Origin: Lepisosteus oculatus
Lineage: Eukaryota > Chordata > Actinopteri > Semionotiformes > Lepisosteidae
Direction of reading: 5' to 3'
Assembly (NCBI RefSeq): GCF_040954835.1
Contig: NC_090706.1
Coordinates: forward strand, 29,583,148 to 29,647,147
DNA: 64,000 nucleotides
Of the stretch, positions 46 through 60,000 are shown piece by piece (within the stretch, counting starts at the first letter, position 1; each line of letters begins with the position of its first letter). A program made the position numbers and the translations under genes. The notes under the pieces were generated by a model. It was given only the letters and a program-made list of their open reading frames with translations, had not been told where the DNA came from and did no database searches.

Positions 46-3000
46 AGTATGAAACCAGAGCTGAGCTATCTGGCTCACAACCTGTGTGAGATCGACAAGT
101 ACCGTGTGGAGACCTGCTGTGTCATCGGTGAGTGTGCTCCAGAGAACACCCAGGGCTGGTCTGGACAGGTGTGAGGGAGAGAGGGCAAGGTTCACTCTAG
201 CCCTGCACACGGGTCTAGGTGGTGGGATTCATTGAGGGTCCTGACAGTGCTCTCTTGCTCTCAGGTAACTACTACAGTCTGCGCTCACAGCATGAGAAGG
301 CTGCGCTGTACTTCCAGAGAGCACTGAAGTTGAACCCACGCTGCTTGGGTGCCTGGACACTCATGGGCCATGAGTACATGGAGATGAAGAACACGTCTGC
401 AGCCATACAGGCCTACAGGTAATACACACCTGGAGTCCAGGTAATACACTACAGCACACCTCTAATACAGGTAATACACACCTGGCGTACAGATAATACA
501 CTATAGCACACCTCTAATACAGGTAATACACACCTGGCGTACAGATAATACCGAACAGCACAACTCTAATACAGGTAATGTACAGATAATACTGTACAGC
601 ACACCTCTAATACAGGTAATACACACCTGCAGTACAGGTAATACTGTACAGCACACCTCTAATACAGGTAATGTACAGATAATACTGTACAGCACACCTC
701 TAATACAGGTAATGTACAGATAATACTGTACAGCACACCTCTAATACAGGTAATACACACCTGGCGTACAGATAATACTGTACAGCACACCTCTAATACA
801 GGTAATACACACCTGGCGTACAGATAATACTGAACAGCACACCTCTAATACAGGTAATACACACCTGGCGTACAGATAATACTGTACAGAACACCTCTAA
901 TAGAGGTAATACGCACCCGGCGTACAGGTAATACTGTACAGCACACCTCTAATACAGGTAATACACACCTGCAGTACAGGTAATACTGTACAGCACACCT
1001 CTAATACAGGTAAGACACACCTGCAGTACAGGTAATACTGTACAGCACAACTCTAATACAGGTAAGACACACCTGCAGTACAGGTAATACTGTACAGCAC
1101 ATCTATAAAACGGACCCACATATCACACATGTTACCTAACAGATAGAACTCTGCACATCTGTGTGGAGTCTGAATGTTCTTCCCATGGTCCCTTGGCTTT
1201 CCTCCAGGTGCTCCCTCAGTCTGAAGGCACGCTTGTAGGTTAATTGGCTTCTTGAAAAATGAGCCCTGGTGTGAGAGTGCACGGGTCTGTGTCTGCGTGT
1301 GCCCTGCGATGGACTGGCGTCCCATCCAGGGTGTTCCCAGGCTTGCTCCCGTTGCCTGCTGGGATAGGCTCCAGCTACCCTGCGACCCGGTGCTGCATGA
1401 GGCGATGAGAAGAGGGGTGGTGGGTGGGTAGCTCCCCTGTTCTGAGGGCGACGCCAGTGCGCACCTGTAACACAGACGTGTTGATTTTTGCAGGCATGCG
1501 ATCGAGGTGAACAAGAGGGATTACCGGGCCTGGTACGGGCTGGGACAGACCTACGAGATCCTCAAGATGCCCTTCTACTGCCTGTACTACTACCGCCGAG
1601 CGCACCAGCTGAGGTCAGTCCGCGCGCCCGTGTGGGCCGGCCGCCCCGCGCCCTGTAACCCCCGCGTCCTGTCACAGTGCGTCTGTCCCGCAGGCCCAAC
1701 GACTCGCGCATGCTGGTGGCGCTGGGGGAGTGCTACGAGAAGCTGGCGCAGCACGTGGAGGCCAAGAAGGTACTGGGCCGTGTGTTCGACCAGGCGGTGG
1801 CGCTGTTCTGGGGTTTAAGGGCAGGAGCGCCGCTCTCTCCAGAGTCAGTGGGACAGCCCTGGGGAGGTCTGTGAGGTCTGTGTCCCAGTGGCATGATGGG
1901 GTGTGCAGGTTTCAGTCTGTGTTTACAGGCAGGAGCGCCTCTCGCTCCAGAGTCAGTGGGACAGCCCTGGGGAGGCCTGTGAGGTCTGTGTCCCAGTGGC
2001 ATGATGGGGTGTGCAGGTTTCAGTCTGTGTTTACAGGCAGGAGCGCCTCTCGCTCCAGAGTCAGTGGGACAGCCCTGGGGAGGCCTGTGAGGTCTGTGTC
2101 CCAGTGGCATGATGGGGTGTACAGGTTTCAGACTGTTTACAGGCAGGAGCGCTGCTCTCTCCAGAGTCAGTGGGACAGCCCTGGGGAGGCCTGTGAGGTC
2201 TGTGTCCCAGTGGCATGATGGGGTGTGCAGGTTTCAGACTGTGTTTACAGGCAGGAGCGCCTCTCGCTCCAGAGTCAGTGGGACAGCCCTGAGGAGGTCT
2301 GTGTCCCAGTGGCATGATGGGGTGTGCAGGTTTCAGACTGTGTTTACAGGCAGGAGCGCTCTCTCCAGAGTCAGTGGGACAGCCCTGGGGAGGTCTGTGA
2401 GGTCCGTGTCCCAGTGGCATGATGGGGTGTGCAGGTTTCAGACTGTTTACAGGCAGGAGCGCCTCTCGCTCCAGAGTCAGTGGGACAGCCCTGGGGAGGT
2501 CCGTGTCCCAGTGGCACGATGGGGTGTCCAGGTTTCAGACTGTGGCTGCAGTCTGGAGCTCATTGCTAGCGGTGGTGGTGACGTGTTTCTGTGCTCTGTG
2601 TGCCAGTGTTACTGGAGGGCGCATTCGGTGGGAGATGTGGAGAGGATGGCCCTGCTCAAGCTGGCTAAGTGAGTACCTGTCCGTCACGCCCGTCTCCGCC
2701 CGTGTCTCCTTGTCGTAGTCTTCGCCTGCACCCTTGTCTCTCTGTCTTCCTGAGCTTTCATTCTGCGTGGTACAGTACATGAGGGGTGTGTCTACTGCAC
2801 ATGTGTGTCAGAGACAAGGGGTTTGTTCCACTGAGCACAGTGTTGCAGTACAGTGTACACTACAGCTGTAGTACAGTGCGGTGTGGTGTGTGCTTGGTAC
2901 AATGTGCAGTGTGTGTGGTACGATGTGCAGTTCAGTGTGTGCGTGTGGTACGATGTGCAGTGTGCGCTACATTGTGGCTTTTTTCAGGCTTCATGAGCAG

Positions 3001-3972
3001 CTGAACGAGTCTGACCAGGCAGCTCAGTGCTACGTCATTTACATCCAGGATATCTTCTCCTGTGGGGTGAGTCTGCGCTGCCTATTTCCTGCACAACTGC
3101 ACATGCTGCATGGTAGGGCATTTGTGCACAGCTGTACAACTGCGCAACCCTACTGAACTAATACACGCCTACTGTACAGTGTAAGCACACAAAGCAATGC
3201 ACATGTTCATTAGATGATCAGATCACAATTGCTGTGAGGACAATGTCCTAACGTGTCACTCCGTATCTCCACTCCGTAGGAGCAGCTGGAGCATGTGGAG
3301 CTGAGCACGGCGTTCAGGTATCTGGGCCAGTACTACTTCAAGAACAAGCGCTACGACGAGGCCTCTCTCTGTGCCCAGCGCTGTTGCGACTACAATGACG
3401 TGAGTCAGCCTGCGACCCGTGTCCTTCCCAGCATTCCTCAAGAGTCGCGCGCAGTGTCCAGTCCATGGGGACTGTGTCAGCAGAATGGACTTAATGGGCA
3501 TCATCCATGTCCATATTGTAATGACCTGCATCTTCCTAGTCTGAAATCTCACATTGCAGCCAGTGTGTCATGATGCCGTGTGATAAATATTCACACTGCG
3601 GCCGGTGTGTGGCGGTGCTGTGTGCTAAATATTTTATACCGCGGCCAGTGTGTCGTGGTGCAGTGTGGTAAATATTGCCTGTTTTGGCAGTAGCTGTGAT
3701 ATTTAAGTAGTTGTTGGCTTCTGGCTGGCTGCTGCTCAGATTAAACTAACGCCCCTTGTCATGTGAGTGCGTGTAATTAACAGCCGTGATGTCGTCTTCC
3801 CCAGGCCCGGGAGGATGGGAAGGCACTCCTGCGCCAGATCTCTCAGGTCAGAGGTCAGGGCGAGGCCGCGTCCTCTGACCTCCCTCTGCCATTTGTCTTC
3901 GGGCCGCTGTCCAACAACAACACCCCTGTTCGAAGAGTGTCTCCCCTTAACCTATCCTCCGTCACCCCCTGA
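46..3972 (+). CDS. CDC23: CDC23 (APC8), anaphase-promoting complex TPR subunit, C-terminal half
   Basis: Eight exons: 46-127, 265-418, 1494-1613, 1694-1769, 2607-2668, 2988-3066, 3280-3399, 3805-3972. They sum to 861 nt (286 codons plus TGA) and all junctions keep phase. The protein begins [20 protein letters not shown] and ends [10 protein letters not shown], and is near-identical to vertebrate CDC23 as I know it. It carries the C-terminal tetratricopeptide repeats, for example [20 protein letters not shown] and [17 protein letters not shown]23 is a scaffold TPR subunit of the APC/C ubiquitin ligase that drives mitotic exit in the nucleus and cytoplasm. The human protein is about 597 aa, so the N-terminal half lies left of the window. 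The tail [15 protein letters not shown] resembles the known mitotically phosphorylated end. Introns 2 and 4 are filled by minisatellites. The gene is convergent with KIF20A. Family identity is certain; exact edges are inferred from splice consensus. Confidence 0.96.
412..1103. repeat. Minisatellite in CDC23 intron 2, built from the 5' splice site
   Basis: About 52-bp units with repeated CAGGTAATACACACCTGG and TACAGATAATACTGTACAGC motifs. The true exon 2 junction TACAG|GTAATACACACCTGG is itself the first unit, so about 15 further CAG|GTAATA donor-like sites follow it. Confidence 0.92.
1815..2541. repeat. 107-108 bp minisatellite in CDC23 intron 4
   Basis: About seven copies of a 107-108 bp unit containing GCATGATGGGGTGTGCAGG and AGAGTCAGTGGGACAGCCCT. 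Several copies carry short deletions. The array starts about 45 bp after the exon 4 donor. Confidence 0.93.
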
Positions 3973-7038: not shown

Positions 7039-10000
7039 TCCAGTATGGGACAGTAGGACAGTGTCTAGTCCAGCCAGGTCAGGGACAGTACCTGTTTGGC
7101 CAAGATGCTGTCGCAGGCCTCCAGTGCGAGTCTCAGCTTCTCTCCAGCCGTGTTGTGGCAGCAGGCTCTCTCTGCGGACTGCAGTCCTGTCCCCAGCGTG
7201 GACAGCTCCTGGCGCAGCAGCCGGACATTCTGCAAGCACAGCACAGCCCACACCTCTCACACAGCTGCCGGACACTGCGGTCAGCACAGCACAGCCCACA
7301 CCTGTCACACCACTGCCGGACACTGCGGTCAGTACAGCACAGTCCACACCTGTCACACCACTGCCGGACACTGCGGTCAGCACACCACTGCCGGACACTG
7401 CGGTCAGTACAGCACAGTCCACACCTGTCACACCACTGCCGGACACTGCGGTCAGTACAGCACAGCCCACAACTCTCACACCGCTGCCGGACACTGCGGT
7501 CAGCACGGCACAGCCCACACCTGTCACACCGCTGCGGTCAGCACTGCACAGTCCACACCGCTGCCGGACACTGCGGTCAGCACAGCCCAGCCCACACCTG
7601 TCACACCGCTGCCGGACACTGCGGTCAGCACAGCCCAGCCCACACCTGTCACACCGCTGCCGGACACTGCGGTCAGCACAGCCCAGCCCACACCTGTCAC
7701 ACCGCTGTGGTCAGCACAGCCCAGCCCACACCTGTCACACCGCTGCCGGACACTGCAGTCAGCACCACACAGCCCACACCCATCACTCACCCATCACTCA
7801 CCCTCTGGCTCTCCTCCAGCTTCCTGTCCACCCTGGAGGTCAGCGTGGTCTCGGTGGGGGCCAGCCGGACCAGGTCGTGGTACTGCTGCAGCTCTGGGGA
7901 GAGAGGGCACACCCGTGGGTCAGTCACCCCGGCGGCCAGGCCGCGGCTCCGAGCCCCCCCGCCGGCTCCCCCCCTCACCCTTCGTCTTCTGCTCCAGCTC
8001 GGCCCGGCTCTGCTCCAGCTCGGCCTGCAGGCGGCGCTGCTCCGGCCCCTGGGAGGCCAGGCGCCGGGAGCGCCGCAGCGCCAGGGGGGGCGGGCTGGGG
8101 GCCGGGGGCTCCTTCCTCTCCGCCTCCTGCAGGGCTGCGGAGATCTCCTCGATCTGCTCGTCCCGCTCCTGAGAGAGAGAGAGAGGGGGTCTCAGCTGTG
8201 CTCCGCTTTCTTCACCGGTCGTCATTCTTTAGACTCCACTGCACCCCCAATCCGGAGAGGGGCCCCCACCGCACCCCCCAATCCGGAGAGCACCAGGTCT
8301 CCCACCACACCCCCAGGCTGGAACCCGGGCTCGGAGAGCTCACCTGGATCTCCCGGCTGTAGTATCTCGTCAGGGACTCCTGCAGGTTCTGGATCTTGTC
8401 CTCGTACTGCTCCTCCAGCAGCTCGCGCTCGCTCTGCAGCGTCTCGCTGTGCGGACAGGGGAGCGTCAGAGTCTCCCCCACTCTCCCTCTCTCCCTGTAC
8501 CCAAAGTCCTCCTCTCTCCTCCCTCTCTCTCTCCCTGTACCCAAAGTCCTCCTCTCTCCTCCCTCTCTCTCTCCCTGTACCCAAAGTCCTCCTCTCTCCT
8601 CCCTCTCTCTCTCCCTCTACCCGAAGTCCTCCTCTCTCCCTCTACCTGAAGTCCTCCTCTCTCCGCCCCCCCTCTCCCCCCTCCCTCAAATCCTCCCTCT
8701 CTCCCTGTACCCAAAGTCCTCCTCTCTCTCTCCCTGTACCCAAAGTCCTCCTCTCTCTCTCCCTCTCTCCCTGTACCCAAAGTCCTCCTCTCTCCTCCCT
8801 CTCCCTCTACCTGAAGTCCTCCTCTCCCCCCCTCCCTCAAATCCTCCCTCTCTCCCTCTACCTGAAGTTCTGCTCTCTCCTCCCTCTCTCTCTCCCTGTA
8901 CCCGAAGTCCTCCCCTCTCCCGGTACCTGAAGTCCTCCTCCCTGCGGTTCAGGAGCTCCATCATCTCGGACACCACCTGCTCCCGGATGTTGGCCTCCAG
9001 CGCAGCCCTCTCTCTCCTCTCGCCCAGCAGCGTCTGCTTCAGCACCTCCACCGCGCGCAGCAGCGCCTGCAGCCCAGGGACAGAGCGTCAGGGAGGGCCT
9101 GCGGATACGCGCCAGCACAGGCGAGGCGGACACTGACCTTCGTGTCGAACATAGCGATCTCCTCCTCCTCCTCCTCCTCCTCCTCGCTCTCCTCTTCCGT
9201 CGCCCCGCCCTCCTCCTCGCACTTGCTCTCATTGATCTTCATCCCGTGCTCCCTCAGCAGCGACTGGATGTAGGCCACTCTGGTCCTGGTGGGGGGGGCG
9301 TGGACAAGCTGGAGGAGAGAAACAAGGTATGTCACACCGCCCCCTGCTGGGCGAGTGGGGAACTACACCGGACCAAAATGAAAAGTCTGACCACGTCTCG
9401 GTTTAGCGGTGCATTGTGGGAAAGAAGGGAGGATGGGAAGGAGCTCATACAAGACGGAAGATGGACGGCCAGACACAAGAGGGACAGACGAGGGAGAGGG
9501 GCTTGAGAGAGGCAGAGGGCGAGCCCCACCTGCGTCGCGATGGCGGAGAACTTCAGCGCCTGCAGCGTCTCGTCGTAGGTGGAGGTGCAGGGGTTGATGT
9601 TGACGATCATGCAGGAGCGCCCGCGGCCGCAGAAGAAGGACTGGAAGACGCGGGTCAGCTTGCTGTCCCGGAACGGGACCACCTTCGGAGGCTTTGACCT
9701 GCAGCAGGCAGAGGCACAGGAGAGAGTCAGCCATCAGCCACACGGGGAGAGACAGAGAGACAGAAAGAGCACACAGGGGCACAGGAGAGAGACAACTGAG
9801 CTCAACAAAGAGCCCTGTGAGCCAGCTGGTTCTGAAGCTCACTGGCCCGAGCCACACCGACACCAGCCAGCCTCAGGACAGCACTGCTAGAGCACCACAA
9901 CTCAACCACATCACAGCACAGGTCAACCAGCAATCTCTCACACACTGGGACGGACACACACACGCAAACTGGAATGCTACAGAACCCTAAATAGACAATA

Positions 10001-13000
10001 CACACTAGCCGAATGTCTAACCAAGATAAATAACAGCAAACAGAAACAGAACCCTCAGGCTCAGTGACCACAGCCTGGCTATAGAAACTGGACACAGGCA
10101 GACCTGACTGTCCAGAGAGGACAGGCTCAGTGACCACAGCCTGGCCATAGAAACTGGACACAGACAGACCTGACTGTCCAGAGAGGACAGTAGATTTTTT
10201 TATGCCAATTGTATTTGTTTTGCTTTGGCAACACTGATTGTGCTCATCAGTCATGCCAATAAAGCACCTTGGATTGAACTGAATAGAGAGGAGGAGGAGG
10301 GACAGGAGAGAGGGGTACCTGTGGGCCTGGTTGTGCCGCAGGGCGGCGATGCAGCGCCCCAGCGTGTGCAGGGAGGTGTTGATGTTGTTGGCCTCCTTCA
10401 TCCTCTCCCCACAGCGCTGCTCCTTACAGCGCTCCGACCCCGCCAGGTCACACAGGGACAGCCTGGGGACAGAGCGGGACAGGTCAGGGTGGGGTGGGAG
10501 TGTGGGACAGATCAGGGCAGGACAGGTCAGGTCAGGGCAGCAGTGTGGGACAGGGCAGGGCGTGACAGGGCGGGCTGGCAGAGTGCGGCGACACCGGCCG
10601 CGATCGCAAGAGAGGAGCGACACTCACTCGCTGATCCGCGCTCCCTGTCCGTCCGGGGCGTCCGGGTTGATGTGCAGGATCCGGATAGAGAAGATGCTGT
10701 GACTGCAGAGGGACAGACAGTCAGTGAGAGAGGCCAGGTGCTGCGCAGTCTAAAACTCCCCCCCGCCGAACACTGGACTAGATCGGGCCGGCTCCCCTAC
10801 TCCCCTCCCCCACACCGGACCAGACCGGGCCGAGCTGAGCCCACTCCCCCCGGACTGGACCGGACCGAGCAGCCTCTTTCTCCCCCTCCCCCACGAGACC
10901 GGGCCGGGCCCCAGTACCTGCGGCTGGAGGCCTGGTTCAGGTGGGTGCTGGCGAAGCTCTGGTTCCTGCGGCCGACCTGCAGCACGCGCCACGCCTCCTC
11001 CGCGCTGCGCACGTTCACCCAGGTCAGGTCTGAGACACACGGACAGAGAGCCAATCAGAGCGCCGGCACGGTGACCATCCACCAATCAGGAGCAGCCTCC
11101 CATCTGCCACGCTGGCACCACATACAGTCAACACAGACACACAGCCTGGCCACTCTGGGCATCGAAAAACACAAAGACCTCAAAAGGCAGCAGGCCATTC
11201 AGCCCATCTAGCAGTTTATCGACAAATCGTAGCTTCATTTCAGCCAGGCTCTTCCTGGAACTCAGTGGTTAGGCCTCAACAGCTGTTCCAGACACCCGCA
11301 GCTCTCTGGGTACAGAGGCTCTTCCTCCTCTCCGTCCTAAACAGACTCCCTCTACTTTTCCAGCAGTGGCTCTTCAGCAGAGCCCCGATCCCTTGCCCTC
11401 CACCTTCTGCGCTCCTCTCGCAAGCTGCCTCTTTACGAAACGCCACCTCTTCCTTCGCCCTGCCCCCCCAAACTGTACATCCACCCTCACCCCCGGAACT
11501 GCGGCACCCTCAGACTGACGCAGGGAGGGCCTTTCCTGCCCCCACCAGGACCAGCTTGCTGCCTGCCCCCCCCCCCCCCCCCAGATCCCAGCTGTCAGTG
11601 CTGCTCAGCGCCCCCGCACCCTTGACGTAGGGGTTCCCGTGGCGGTCGTCGCACAGCCTCAGGGTGGCCCTCTTGCGGAGCTGGCCGGGCGGCGTGTTGA
11701 GCAGGTCGTACAGGAACTCGTTGTAGATCTCGAAGAAGGAGACCCAGATGGAGTAGCGCACGCCCTCGGCACCGGCGCTGCTGTCCAGGGACAGGCCGTC
11801 GAAGTCCAGACAGACGCTGTCCGGCTCTGGAGAGAGGACAGAGTCAGTAAGTGCGGAAAGGGCCATCTGACATGAGGAGCTGCAGCCTGCAGAATTAAGG
11901 GTGGTGCTGTTTCCCTAGTGGGCTAGAAGACACTGAGAAGGTGGGTATCGGTCTGCTCTGGTCAGTGCTGGGAAGGTGGGGGAGACCTCAGAGGAGCACC
12001 AGGTCAGTCAGTGGAACAGTAGGTGGCGCTCTTTGCCCAGTTTGAGCACTGGGGACATTGAGCTGCAAGAGACTTGTACAAGAATCAGAATGACACAAGC
12101 TCCCACTACCGGCTCCCAAACTAAGAGGCACGTCTAAACGAGGGTGCCCATATCCCCCTAACCTGGGCCCTAGGTGCCTTCAGGAGGGGGGTCCCCTCAC
12201 AGAAAATGGGGGTGAGGTCTTTTACCGAGGGGACACAGTGCGTCACTAGGGCTGCCCTCACTCACCGTCCAGCCGGGTGGCACTGCAGCTGTTGGCAGAG
12301 AGGCTAGCGATGCCGCTGTCGTAACTGGTCACCCCTCGAACGCGGGACCGCTGGGGTGTCTGGCATTCATCCTAGGAGGGAAGAGACAGTGTAAGGCCCT
12401 GGCTCGCTCGTGGTATCCACACCCAGGACAGCTGTGAGCACGCCGTGGCAACGGCTCACACCCCATCGTGCCAGTGGGCAGCAAAGCCCACACCCCAGAA
12501 ACCACATGATCCCCGATAGCTCCGCCCATACCCCCCACTTGTTCCACCCAGAACCCCACCCCAGCCACCCACATGCCGCACCCAGAACCCCACCCCTGCC
12601 ACCCACATGCCACACCCCAGAAACCATGTGACCCCGCCCATAGCTCCACCCATACCCCCACTTGTCCCACCCAGAACCCCACCCCTACAACCCACCTGTG
12701 CCACCCGTGTCACGCCTAGAGCCCTGACCCGGTAACCCACTGCCCCACCCCTACTACCCACCTGCCCCCTCCTACTCCCCCTGCGCCCCACCCCCCTCAC
12801 CTCCTGCAGCAGGGCCGCGCGCCTCAGCTCCTCGATCCGCACCTCGGCGCTGTCCAGCCAGCGCACCTGCTGGCACAGGACCGGCTTCAGGTCCAGGGAG
12901 GGGTACAGCCGGCCCTGCAGGCTGCCGAACACGGTCGCCAGGGAGCGGGGCAGCAGCCCGCCGTCGCTGCCCACACCTGGGGGAGGGAGAGAGGCCGTTA

Positions 13001-13968
13001 CCGCCGGGGACCCCGCAGGTCCACCCCCCCCCCCAGGCGCCCCGCCGGGCCACTCACCCTGGACGGTGTAGGTCTTGCCGGAGTTGGTGACCCCGTAGGT
13101 GTAGACCAGCCAGCTCTCGCCCCTCAGCACGTCCCTCACCGTCTCCCTCATCGTGCGCTCGAAGAACTCCTTCTGGCTCGTGTCGGGACGGCAGATCTGC
13201 ACCGTGCAGAGCAGGAGGCCGTCACTGCCCGCCCCTGTCCCTCTGCTCCCCACCCCCAGCGTCCCTGCGCCTCACCTGCCTGAAGGTGAACCTGTGCACG
13301 GCCCGCCCCTGCCCCTCTCCCCCCCCCCATGCCCAGCGTCCCTGCGCCTCACCTGTGTGAAGGTGAACCTGTGCACGGCCTGGCCCTGCCCCCCCCACGC
13401 CCAGCGTCCCTGCGCCTCACCTGTGTGAAGGTGAACCTGTGCACGGCCTGGCCCTGCCCCCCCCACGCCCAGCGTCCCTGCGCCTCACCTGTGTGAAGGT
13501 GAACCTGTGCACGGCCTGGCCCTGCGCCCCCCACGCCCAGCGTCCCCGCGCCTCACCTGCGTGAAGGTGAACCTGTGCACGGCCTGCCCCCCCCCCCCGG
13601 CGTCCCTGCGCCTCACCTGTGTGAAGGTGAACCTGTGCACGGCCTGGCCCACGCCCCGCTCCGTGTTCCTCATGGCGGCGGAGTCCTGGGGGGCCCGCAG
13701 GAGCAGGGTGTCCTCGCCCTCCACGCTGACGCAGCACTGGGGAGGGGAAGAGGGTTCGCTCCCGTTTCACACACACACACACAGAGAGAGCAGAAACCCC
13801 AGAACCCTGAGCCCCGAACCCCCGGCCGGCCGGCGGCTGACCTGGTCTTCCCCTCGCTCCTGCTCCGCTTCTGTCAGCGGCCGGATCCGCAGGAACACCT
13901 TCACCTTCTCCACGCCGGCCTCCGCGCTCAGCTGGGGACCAGGAAGAGGACCCGGTGTTAATACGCAC

Positions 13969-31600: not shown

Positions 31601-34600
31601 TCTGTGCTCTTCCACACACTGTCAGGACCTGACTCTGTGCTCTTCCACACACTGTCAGGACCTGACTCTGTGCTCTTCCACACACTGTCAGGACCTGACT
31701 CTGTGCTCTTCCACACACTGTCAGGACCTGACTCTGTGCTCTGACACTGTGCTCTTCCACACACTGTCAGGACCTGACTCTGTGCTCTTCCACACACTGT
31801 CAGGACCTGACTCTGTGCTCTTCCACACACTGTCAGGACCTGACTCTGTGCTCTGACACTGTGCTCTTCCACACACTGTCAGGACCTGACTCTGTGCTCT
31901 TCCACACACTGTCAGGTCCTGACTCTGTGCTCTGACACTGTGCTCTTCCACACACTGTCAGGACCTGACTCTGTGCTCTTCCACACACTGTCAGGACCTG
32001 ACTCTGTGCTCTTCCACACACTGTCAGGTCCTGACTCTGTGCTCTTCCACACACTGTCAGGTCCTGACTCTGTGCTCTTCCACACACTGTCAGGACCTGA
32101 CTCTGTGCTCTTCCACACACTGTCAGGACCTGACTCTGTGCTCTTCCACACACTGTCAGGACCTGACTCTGTGCTCTTCCACACACTGTCAGGACCTGAC
32201 TCTGTGCTCTTCCACACACTGTCAGGACCTGACTCTGTGCTCTTCCACACACTGTCAGGACCTGAGTCTGTGCTCTGACACTCTGCTCTTCCACACACTG
32301 TCAGGTCCTGATTCTGGGCACATGGTCAGTCCCTGACCCTGTTCACATGCTCTGGCACGCTTTGACACTGTGTTCTGACACACACTATTAGTTCCTGACT
32401 CTGTGCATACGCTCTGTGACTCCCTGACTCTGGGTTCTGACACTGTGCTCTTTGACACACTGATAGATCCTGGCTGTGTGCTCTGACACACACCATCAAT
32501 GTGCTCTGACACGTGCTGTCAGTTCCTGATGACTAGCAGCTGAAGATTTAAAATTGTTAATTTTATTTTTATTCTTCTTTGTATTTTTCCCATGGTTGAA
32601 TTTTTAGATGTATCTCTCATATCTGCTACCCTCTCCAAATATCCCTCTCTCAGTTCCATGTGCAGTGAGGATCAGGAGGCAATCCAGGCCCAGAAAATCT
32701 GGAAGAAATCCATCATGCTGGTGTGGCGAGCTGCAGCCAATCACAGGTGAGCCCCGTCTCTTGTGTCCACCCTCTGCTGTACTGGGACTGTCCGACTGCA
32801 CTGGAAGTGTAGCTCCTATTGTAACAGGACTGTTCTACTGCACTGGGACTGTAGCTCATGTTGTAACAGGACTGTTCTACTGCCCTGGGACTGTAGCTCA
32901 TGTTGTAACAGGACTGTTCTACTGTACTGGGACTGTAGCTCCTATTGTAACAGGACTGTTTTACTGTACTGGGACTGTAGCTCCTATTGTAACAGGACTG
33001 TTCTGCTGTACTGGGACTGTAGCTCCTATTGTAACAGGACTGTTCTGCTGTACTGGGACTGTAGCTCCTATTGTAACAGGACTGTTCTGCTGTACTGGGA
33101 CTGTAGCTCCTATTGTAACAGGACTGTTCTGCTGTACTGGGACTGTAGCTCCTATTGTAACAGGACTGTTCTGCTGTACTGGGACTGTAGCTCCTATTCT
33201 AACAGGACTGTTCTACTGTACTGGGACTGTAGCCTCTATTGTAACAGGACTGTTCTACTGTACTGGGACTGTAGCTCCTGTTGTAACAGGACTGTTCTAC
33301 TGCACTGGGACTGTAGCTCCTGTTGTAACAGGACTGTTCTACTGTACTGGGACTGTAGCTCCTGTTGTAACAGGACTGTTCTACTGCACTGGGACTGTAG
33401 CTCCTGTTGTAACAGGACTGTTCTACTGTACTGGGACTGTAGCTCCTGTTGTAACAGGACTGTTCTACTGTACTGGGACTGTAGCCTCTATTGTAGCTGT
33501 TTCCACTTTGAGTGATTTCTGTGTATTTCTCCATGCCCAGGTATGCCAACGTGTTTCTCCAGCCTGTGACGGATGACATTGCGCCAGGATACCACAGTAT
33601 TGTGCACAGGTTGGTCCGGCTGACTGCCTGTTACCTGGGAGGAGAGTGAAAACAGTGGCTTAGTGGGGAGAAGAGACAAATGCTGTGTGAATATGAGGAT
33701 GACCACCGCATGTGAACGAATGCACTGAGAGCATCCGTTGCTGGTGTTCCTGGATGTGAACGTGCGCGTGTCTTTCTCTGTCTCCAGACCGATGGATCTG
33801 TCCACGATCAAGAAGAACATCGAGAACGGGCTCATCCGGACCACGGCCGAATTCCAGCGGGACATCATGCTGATGTTCCAGAACGCGGTGATGTACAACA
33901 GCTCCGACCACGACGTCTACCACATGGCGCTGGAGATGCAGAGGGACGTGCTGGAGCAGATACAGGTACACGGTGACCTCAGAGAGGTCACAGGTCACAA
34001 GGTCACGGGGGCCCCTTGGCCCATCTTGTCGGTGTGGCCATTAGGAGCTCGTTGATCTGGGAACCTCATCCAGCTCTGTCTTGCATGAAGCCAGGTATCA
34101 GCTTCAGCCTCGTGGCCTGGTAGCTTGCTCCACACTCCCACCTCCCATGGTGTAAAATAGTGCCTCCTGTTCTCCGTGTTAAACGCTCCTCTGGTTCTGA
34201 AGAAGACCTCTGGTGTAACTGCGCCCGTGAGGATTGTGAAGACTTGTATCGGGTCCTCCTGCAGCCTTCTCTGCTCAAGACTAAAGAAGTTTTAGCCTGT
34301 CACTCCCTTAAAACTGGGATTGCACCTGGGTGGTCTTCTCTGCAGTCGTTCCAGAGGAGAAATTTTTGGCAATGTGGAGACTATTATTTTACAGTGTATT
34401 CAGGAGGTGTGCTGAGCAGATATTGATATCACACTTTTTTGTTCATTTAAAAATGCATTTGAAGTGACAAAATAAAAGTCACTGTAGAGGGGAAGGGGGG
34501 GTGGTTACAAGTGTTGTGGGGGACATGATTCTGGGGGGATTGAAGTAGTGTTACAGGGGATAAGACCCTTATATAGCAATTTCCTAACTTCTCCTACCTG

Positions 34601-38698: not shown

Positions 38699-38769
38699 GA
38701 AATATTAAAAATGTTCTTTCTATATGACCTGTGTGGATTGAGCTGTCCCATGTGAGAGCTGGGATCTGG

Positions 38770-39370
38770 TACTCCTGTTGTAACAGGACTGTTCTACTGT
38801 ACTCCTGTTGTAACAGGACTGTTCTACTGTACTGGGACTGTAGCGCCTATTGTAACAGGACTGTTCTACTGCACTGGGACTGTAGCTCCTATTGTAACAG
38901 GACTGTTCTACTGCACTGGGACTGTAGCTCCTATTGTAACAGGACTGTCCTACTGTACTGCAACTGTAGCTCCTATTGTAACAGGACTGTTCTACTGTAC
39001 TGGACTGTAGCTCCTATTGTAACAGGACTGTTCTACTTCACTAGGACTGTAGCTCCTATTGTAACAGGACTGTTCTACTGTACTGGACTGTAGCTCCTAT
39101 TGTAACAGGACTGTTCTACTTCACTAGGACTGTAGCTCCTATTGTAACAGGACTGTTCTACTGTACTGGACTGTAGCTCCTATTGTAACAGGACTGTTCT
39201 ACTTCACTAGGACTGTAGCTCCTATTGTAACAGGACTGTTCTACTGTACTGGGACTGTAGCCTCTATTGTAACGGGACTGTTCTACTGTACTGGACTGTA
39301 GCCCCTATTGTAACAGGACTGTTCTACTGCACTGGGACTATAGCTCCTATTGTAACAAAACTGTTCACTG
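38770..39370. repeat. Second array of the 42-bp BRD8 unit, between BRD8 and NHP2
   Basis: About 14 units of 39-42 bp with AACAGGACTGTTCTACTGTA and CTGTAGCTCCTATTGTAACA, in the same orientation as the intron 18 array 5 kb upstream. Confidence 0.95.
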
Positions 39371-39591
39371 TACTAAGACTGGGCACTGGAACTGTAGCCC
39401 CTGTCATAACGTGTTCTGCTGTTCAGGGACTGTAAATGTAATTGTAAAATGCTATGGTAAAAGCTGTTCAGTGAATGTAACGGTTCGTCTCGAGAAAGTC
39501 CGTTTCGTGTTCAATACTCCTCCGTAGCACCAGAGGGCGCGAGTATCCCTCGGGCCACATGGCGAGTTAAAAATCAAGCAGGAAAGGGAAG

Positions 39592-48184: not shown

Positions 48185-48735
48185 ACAGGCTCAGTGACCA
48201 TAGAAACTGGACACAGACAGACGTGACTGTCCAGAGAGGACAGGCTCAGTGACCACAGCCTGGACATAGAAACTGGACACAGACAGACCTGACTGTCCAG
48301 AGAGGACAGGCTCAGTGACCACAGCCTGGACATAGAAACTGGACTCAGACAGACCTGACTGTCCAGAGAGGACAGGCTCAGTGACCACAGCCTGGCCATA
48401 GAAACTGGACACAGACAGACCTGGCTGTCCAGAGAGGACAGGCTCAGTGACAACAGCCTGGCCATAGAAACTGGACACAGACAGACCTGACTGTCCAGAG
48501 AGGACAGGCTCAGTGACCACAGCCTGGACATAGAAACTGGACTCAGACAGACCTGACTGTCCAGAGAGGACAGGCTCAGTGACCACAGCCTGGCCATAGA
48601 AACTGGACACAGACAGACCTGACTGTCCAGAGGGGACAGGCTCAATGACCACAGCCTGGCCATTGAAACTGGACTCAGACAGACCTGACTGTCCAGAGAG
48701 GACAGGCTCAGTGACCACAGCCTGCCCATAGAAAC
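48185..48735. repeat. 61-bp minisatellite, LINE-associated
   Basis: Nine units of GAGGACAGGCTCAGTGACCA, CAGCCTGGCCATAGAAACTG and GACACAGACAGACCTGACTG. The same unit occurs at 10,050-10,195, 59,800-59,995 and 63,715-63,765. Confidence 0.96.
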
Positions 48736-48880
48736 GGAGACAGAGATGCACTTTCTGCTGCTCTGTGAGAAACTCTGGGATCAGCCAAACATTCTTCCCT
48801 AAAATAACAAATCGAATCCCAGAATTCCCACTCCTGCCAGAATCAGAACAGGTCCCGGTCCTACTGGGAGAGGGAGAGGA
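48736..48880 (+). mobile_element. LINE fragment (ORF2 C-terminus and 3' UTR start)
   Basis: GAGACAGAGATGCACTTTCT encodes ETEMHFLL, followed by CCAGAATTCCCACTCCTGCC. Both are shared with the minus-strand LINE at 51,890-52,320. It follows directly on the 61-bp array. Confidence 0.65.
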
Positions 48881-59799: not shown

Positions 59800-60000
59800 C
59801 GGTTTCTATGGCCAGACTGTGGTCACTGAGTCTGTCCTCTCTGGACAGTCAGGTCTGTCTGTGTCCAGTTTCTATGGCCAGGCTGTGGTCACTGAGCCTG
59901 TCCTCTCTGGACAGTCAGGTCTGTCTGTGTCCAGTTTCTATGGCCAGGCTGTGGTCACTGAGCCTGTCCTCTCTGGACAGTCAGGTCTGTCTGTGTCACC
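59800..60000. repeat. 61-bp LINE-associated unit, three copies
   Basis: Reverse orientation relative to 48,185: GTCTGTCTGTGTCCAGTTTC, TATGGCCAGGCTGTGGTCAC and TGAGCCTGTCCTCTCTGGAC. Confidence 0.95.

Follow-up and report, generated by a model that had tools for sequence, protein, structure and literature searches.

Minisatellites that duplicate an exon-intron boundary have been described in amphioxus under the name 'mirages' (PMC3087553, PMC3902484). In the text available from these two reports, the mirages leave regular splicing undisturbed, as judged by RT-PCR. A related case is the VNTR of intron 18 in human ABCA7, for which the accessible part of the paper (PMC5954066) describes a 25-bp unit whose first two bases correspond to the donor site. 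One-unit retention accounts there for 2 +/- 1% of transcripts and is not changed by VNTR length, while skipping of exon 19 ranges from 12-45% by tissue and increases with VNTR length. Transcripts bearing a PTC increase under NMD block, expression falls with VNTR length, and alternative transcripts combined exceed the canonical one in 90% of the cases for one brain area. A third related system is intron gain by tandem duplication of an AGGT stretch, in which, according to the portion available of the report (PMC3443670), the duplicated AG/GT makes spare splice sites.

Here we describe an array in the kif20a gene of Lepisosteus oculatus, together with similar arrays elsewhere in the window (the whole analysed stretch of 64,000 nucleotides) and in the genome. 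Judged by the structure of its repeat unit, the kif20a array classes as a mirage-type minisatellite duplicating an exon-intron boundary.

A minisatellite at the kif20a exon 3/intron 3 boundary

Exon 3 of kif20a, by which we mean its coding exon 3, lies on the minus strand and ends ...QAVHRFTFTQ. It is followed within intron 3 by five extra copies of its tail and splice donor. The features of the region are listed below; a slash in a sequence marks the splice position.

13617..13736, minus strand: kif20a coding exon 3, native copy, 120 nt, phase 0 at both ends
13248..13650, minus strand: minisatellite spanning the exon 3/intron 3 boundary, period 68, 5.9 copies
13611..13619, minus strand: donor 1, native to kif20a exon 3, CAG/GTGAGG
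13587..13598, minus strand: run of 12 G (C on the plus strand) that sets the frame of donor 2
13551..13559, minus strand: donor 2 (+60), in frame, open, would add VRRRDAGGGGQAVHRFTFTQ
13483..13491, minus strand: donor 3 (+128), frameshift, stop in exon 4; the TGA blocking read-through to donors 4-6 lies here
13415..13423, minus strand: donor 4 (+196), stop within the extension
13347..13355, minus strand: donor 5 (+264), multiple of 3, stop within the extension
13270..13278, minus strand: donor 6 (+341), stop within the extension; the remaining intron would be 79 nt
13058..13196, minus strand: kif20a coding exon 4, whose acceptor closes intron 3

Tandem Repeats Finder gives the array a score of 606, so it did not arise by chance. 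It takes in 34 nt of exon 3 and 369 nt of the intron, which is 420 nt long, and ends about 51 nt short of the acceptor of exon 4, which starts at 13196. The last exon bases of the six donors are 13617, 13557, 13489, 13421, 13353 and 13276. The preliminary description of this DNA had reported six tandem blocks at spacings of 60, 68, 68, 68 and 77; all six donors were placed at these spacings, the extra ones at +60, +128, +196, +264 and +341 from the native site. It had also assigned QAVHRFTFTQ to every block, which is correct for five of the six; copy 6 is divergent and encodes RAVHRFTFRQ. All six donors read CAG/GTGAGG, that is CAG/GTGAGGCGC, and are identical over nine positions. The middle copies are near-identical (99% over 136 nt when adjacent two-unit blocks are compared), copies across the array differ in substitutions and lengths, and the stretches between donors carry 2 to 6 G-runs per unit. 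A search of the assembly (1,200,105,466 bases, 813 contigs) with the 469-base stretch holding exon 3 and the array returned one match. The array is confirmed as real; its exact copy number may be wrong.

The native donor and the reading frames of the others

The 18 mapped coding exons of kif20a join into one open frame, and the first 11 of them match the PDB entry for KIF20A, 8f18 (E 4.3e-182). Because this match crosses the exon join FTFTQ-ICRPD without a gap, donor 1 is the native site; phase and family alignment thus agree with the earlier claim that the outermost donor is the real exon end. Frame reading likewise supports what had been said of donor 2: it lies 60 nt on, the frame is open, and its use would add 20 residues, VRRRDAGGGGQAVHRFTFTQ. 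This open frame hinges on the exact length of the 12-G run at 13587-13598, and runs of this kind are the most prone to mutation and to errors of length. Use of donor 3 (+128) would cause a frameshift and a stop in exon 4. Read-through to donors 4, 5 and 6 (+196, +264, +341) stops because the sequence at donor 3 reads AGG-TGA in that frame. The 68-bp copies had been said to shift the frame, and the offsets +128, +196 and +341 are indeed not multiples of 3; +264 is a multiple, yet it is closed by the same TGA.

Site strength gives the first donor no advantage, since the nine positions and the U1 duplex energy (-11.6) are the same in all six. Local RNA folding was rejected as a discriminator: every donor is predicted to be mostly paired, and the chance of being unpaired is highest for the last donor (0.034, vs 0.0001 for the first).

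Other boundary-spanning arrays in the window

The gene order over positions 1-43463 is CDC23, KIF20A, BRD8 and NHP2, and 48 introns were mapped in these four genes; the first three are neighbours in human also. CDC23 was identified by PDB 4ui9 (E 1.6e-66) and NHP2 by PDB 7bgb (E 3.9e-76). BRD8 is the probable identity of the remaining gene, given a bromodomain (E 3.1e-24) and synteny; a BRD8 fragment had no match in PDB at E 1e-10. Two more arrays in the window span a donor.

414..1108, plus strand: array after CDC23 exon 265-418 (CDC23 intron 2), boundary TACAG/GTAATACACACCTG, 5 nt exon overlap
8483..8938, minus strand: second kif20a boundary array (intron 13), exon tail GGACTTCAG/GTACCG, 12 nt exon overlap

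In CDC23 intron 2 the native CAG/GTAATA is followed by 18 GT sites whose U1 pairing is at least equal to its own; two of these, reading CAG/GTAAGA, are stronger than the native site. The exon ends in AG, and any extension reads AGG-TAA, an immediate stop. As a chain of donors this array is more extreme than that of kif20a intron 3. The kif20a intron 13 array carries three decoys, CAG/GTAGAG at +65, +116 and +281, with a U1 energy of -8.0 vs -7.1 for the native CAG/GTACCG; all three of these stronger sites shift the frame. An array in BRD8 intron 4 was rejected as a boundary-donor array; it starts 2 nt past the donor and has no copy that matches the native donor in quality.

Between positions 414 and 63587 there are 50 merged arrays of period at least 20, which take up 23,248 bases, or about 36% of the window, against 7% in the first kinesin stretches described below. 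By eye, a 66-bp unit (CCATAGAAACTGGACACAGACAGACCTGACTGTCCAGAGAGGACAGGCTCAGTGACCACAGCCTGG) recurs at 10056-10190, 48198-48744 and 59802-59997, one of these on the opposite strand, as a dispersed minisatellite, and a 42-bp unit (GGACTGTTCTACTGTACTGGGACTGTAGCTCCTATTGTAACA) lies within and past BRD8 at 32785-33495 and 38769-39381. A short repeat at 9167-9218 lies within kif20a coding exon 12, in an acidic run (EEEE...), away from any boundary.

Survey of kinesin genes and a kif22-like locus

A kinesin family search of the assembly returned 130 matches, of which 124 were scored; those left out were three matches to kif20a, two intronless one-frame whole-domain matches and one further match. The terminal 24 nt of each match were compared with the neighbouring sequence within 450 nt, at an identity of at least 80%. 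By this test, which is scored at HMM match ends (some matches contain stops, so some overrun an intron) and is blind to arrays with few exon bases such as that of CDC23, an exon tail is copied downstream in 2 of 124 matches and an exon head upstream in none of the 124. Two near matches on the acceptor side were ascribed to HMM overrun after the flanking sequence had been read.

Both cases of tail copies belong to a single C4 gene with a match to KIF22 (PDB 6nje, E 7.8e-53). The first array has 12 copies of an exon tail with GAGAAG/GTACTG, one of them at 97%, and 11 of the donors are exact. The second repeats a tail ending CTGCTGCAG/GTTCGAC in at least 11 copies, the last of which is truncated where the stretch ends. 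In the two arrays, the frame read past the native donor closes after 4 and 16 codons. They lie at about 2.414 Mb (stretch 1033-2384) and about 2.426 Mb (stretch 1999-3501), and in both the exon tails are almost or wholly identical among copies while the intron parts vary. Arrays make up 80% and 86% of these two loci. The share over the first 20 kinesin stretches (102,620 bases) is 7.1% with the two kif22-like stretches included and, by subtraction, about 2.4% without them. This contrast suggests that boundary arrays occur where minisatellites are dense.

With two more arrays in the window, two in the kif22-like gene, and parallels in amphioxus and ABCA7, the chain of donors, first described as unusual, is not peculiar to this kinesin.

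Frequency and origin of the arrays

The five arrays hold 5 + 3 + 18 + 10 + 9 = 45 decoys, where the counts for kif20a intron 13 and CDC23 take in only donors whose strength equals or exceeds that of the native one, and those for the kif22-like gene only complete exact ones. The resulting chains hold 4 to 19 donors each, counting the native one and those that match or surpass it, and in each of the five arrays the native donor lies 5' of all the others. The protein frame stays open in just one of the 45 decoys, kif20a donor 2; every counted decoy breaks the protein in four arrays, and all but one do so in the fifth. In CDC23 and the kif22-like gene, every decoy lies past a stop.

Arrays of period at least 20 are present in 24 of the 48 mapped introns and cover 50% of intron bases. 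Under a crude model with uniformly placed seeds, 27 arrays gave three donor crossings vs 5.25 expected, and a special targeting of donors is unsupported. Because half of the intron bases are array and crossings do not exceed expectation, arrays at boundaries need no special cause. Acceptor crossings under the same crude model were none for the 27 arrays vs 5.25 expected (P 0.002). The pooled contrast of 5/172 donors vs 0/172 acceptors (Fisher P 0.06) mixes two scorings, an exact exon map with Tandem Repeats Finder for the 48 window introns and 24-mer copies at HMM ends for the 124 kinesin matches. Depletion on the acceptor side is not proved, given a P of 0.06 in the pool and the presence of acceptor-side mirages in amphioxus.

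Three successive CAGGTRAGT motifs gave 740+1043 matches in the genome vs 145+33 for the reversed pattern, figures that count overlapping matches within one array repeatedly, are not numbers of arrays, and do not cover the GTGAGG of kif20a. Loci were read for three arrays among the matches listed; one follows an open exon-like frame and two are without a clear exon. At C1:15.6135-15.6140 Mb (about 1500-1983 of the reverse-complemented stretch), an exon-like open frame ending ...HLLYHTFMT precedes ten CAG/GTGAGT sites at 51-54 bp spacing. This frame may resemble LETMD1; it had no match in Pfam and only weak ones in PDB, at E 0.089 or worse.

As to origin, we infer that a segment joining some 25-28 nt from the end of kif20a exon 3 to some 40-50 nt from the start of intron 3 was duplicated in tandem, probably between short matching stretches, and then expanded to six copies. 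Short stretches are shared at the unit ends by the native exon and the copies, as seen by eye (GGGCGTGGG in kif20a, GCTCAGC in the second kif22-like array), which fits duplication between short matches followed by expansion. Among three arrays, variable columns number 4/156 in the exon-derived parts of the unit vs 20/162 in the intron-derived parts (Fisher P 0.001; by array, 2/60 vs 10/40 with P 0.003, 0/70 vs 4/92, and 2/26 vs 6/30), with part lengths chosen by the analyst and with low complexity of the intron part and shared descent of the copies as confounders. CDC23, which lies outside this pool and has only 6 exon columns, leans alike (2/6 vs 16/20). Lower variation of exon-derived parts is not proved as a general pattern. 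We conclude that a genome rich in minisatellites probably produces such arrays repeatedly, as a by-product.

Which donor is used

The reading we favour, with a probability of about 0.8, is that of a mirage-type minisatellite in which the 5'-most donor, adjoining the exon body, accounts for almost all of the useful mRNA. The other five kif20a donors, which lie downstream, would be silent, or would yield low-level transcripts that are cleared by NMD, and the array would have no selected function, being tolerated because the native donor comes first. Useful mRNA of CDC23 and the kif22-like gene must come from the first donor, because translation past it ends immediately in CDC23 and after 4 and 16 codons in the two kif22-like arrays; by analogy, the same use of the first donor would hold for kif20a. 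The G-rich stretches between the kif20a donors could favour upstream sites and weaken downstream ones. In the part available of one report (PMC1877881), 26 of 31 cases showed suppression of the intron-proximal 5' site by conserved intronic regulatory elements set between the competing donors; in the corresponding 3' site reporter, the strongest such suppressor was a G-triplet motif. This effect fits the G-runs of kif20a; CDC23 is without such runs, so the G-run idea is not a general rule. An opposite influence is described in the accessible text of PMC5585400, where SRSF1 bound beside the sites favours the intron-proximal donor.

Counterpoints to the benign reading are the skipping of exon 19 in ABCA7, the identical strength of the kif20a donors, and the last donor being the least paired. 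Experiments with duplicated donors often favour the donor nearest the acceptor, which also counts against a win by the first. Low-level, NMD-sensitive leakage from the kif20a decoys is likely, and an effect of the array on splicing fidelity is possible.

Among the alternatives, the array could act as a dosage brake, with a sizeable share of transcripts using donors 3-6 and passing through a premature stop to NMD, or skipping the next exon, so that array length tunes kif20a mRNA. Donors 3-6 do all lead to stops, the intron would shrink to 79 nt with donor 6, and in ABCA7, as far as the text available goes (PMC5954066), expression drops and exon 19 skipping climbs with VNTR length; the unit-retention isoform, however, is only about 2% there and is unaffected by length. 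Skipping of 12-45% against retention of 2% implies that the next exon may suffer more than donor choice. We consider such a brake unlikely, some effect of the array on dosage being possible. Donor 2 could be a real alternative site that places the 20 residues VRRRDAGGGGQAVHRFTFTQ in the motor domain of a second KIF20A isoform. This would be the isoform choice raised in the preliminary description, and it is right that the site is in frame, open, and the same as donor 1 over nine positions. Its frame nevertheless depends on the 12-G run, the PDB KIF20A has no insertion at the exon 3/4 junction, the insert would repeat FTFTQ within the motor core, and none of the other 44 decoys is open; with one decoy open in 45, a role for the site is highly unlikely.

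Assembly is difficult across long G-runs and 68-bp copies that are nearly identical, and a single assembly was used, but we give an assembly artefact, or a collapsed or expanded repeat, a very slim chance: the copies differ from one another in substitutions and lengths, the array is found at one place in 1.2 Gb and 813 contigs, and independent arrays of the same type lie at other genes. The slimmest chance goes to recursive or nested splicing, in which the unit end TTCACCTTCACACAG/GTGAGG would serve as a joined acceptor and donor and the array would be removed unit by unit. Every kif20a unit does end in CAG/GT, and the pyrimidine share upstream of the unit ends is 0.53-0.59 vs 0.65 at the true acceptor, yet no long pyrimidine tract was seen in the units and an intron of just 420 nt requires no help.

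Beyond use of the first donor at kif20a, a wider proposition is tentative, and we rate it doubtful: that boundary minisatellites form a widespread directional class, in which donor chains are tolerated as the 5'-most site always wins, acceptor mirrors are removed by selection, and, through sequence exchange between copies and exon, selection on the native exon keeps the exon parts of the decoys nearly constant.

Significance and comparison with known systems

Work on how the spliceosome chooses among identical donors has relied mostly on constructed minigenes. The five arrays (two in kif20a, one in CDC23, two in the kif22-like gene) provide a natural series for donor choice among equal or stronger sites and, if the directional reading were true, one from which the donor-choice rule could be read in vivo. 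They show that a minisatellite can extend into coding sequence, and splicing may vary with the array length of an allele, as it does in ABCA7.

The kif20a array appears to be a new instance of a known phenomenon, the mirage, in a genome that makes several. No vertebrate boundary mirage with copied coding sequence was found among the titles and abstract openings listed by searches of the open-licence literature, and we make no claim of priority. As in intron gain by AGGT duplication (PMC3443670, from the text available), a duplicated AG/GT stretch makes spare splice sites; unlike that case, the acceptor in use at kif20a, as judged by homology, lies outside the array, and no new intron between two duplicated AGGT sites was found there, with exon 4 at 13196 and the array ending short of it. 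The likeness to the amphioxus mirages of Adh3, TnC, the globins BflGb6 and BflGb9, and PGBD5 is closer. The kif20a unit holds an exon end and an intron start, the AG/GT signals are kept in all six units, and the unit lengths of 60-77 bp fall in the reported range of 10-160 bp. The five arrays differ from the amphioxus mirages in being from a vertebrate and on the donor side only, whereas the latter occur on both sides. Splicing of the amphioxus mirages was checked by RT-PCR, and splicing and dosage effects were measured for ABCA7, while for the arrays described here, that of kif20a included, donor use is predicted from sequence. The ABCA7 intron 18 VNTR resembles the kif20a array in beginning at a coding exon's donor (PMC5954066, in the part available), and at kif20a the repeat likewise runs from the exon end with a donor in each unit. 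The ABCA7 units start at the GT, whereas the kif20a unit also holds about 25-34 nt of coding sequence.
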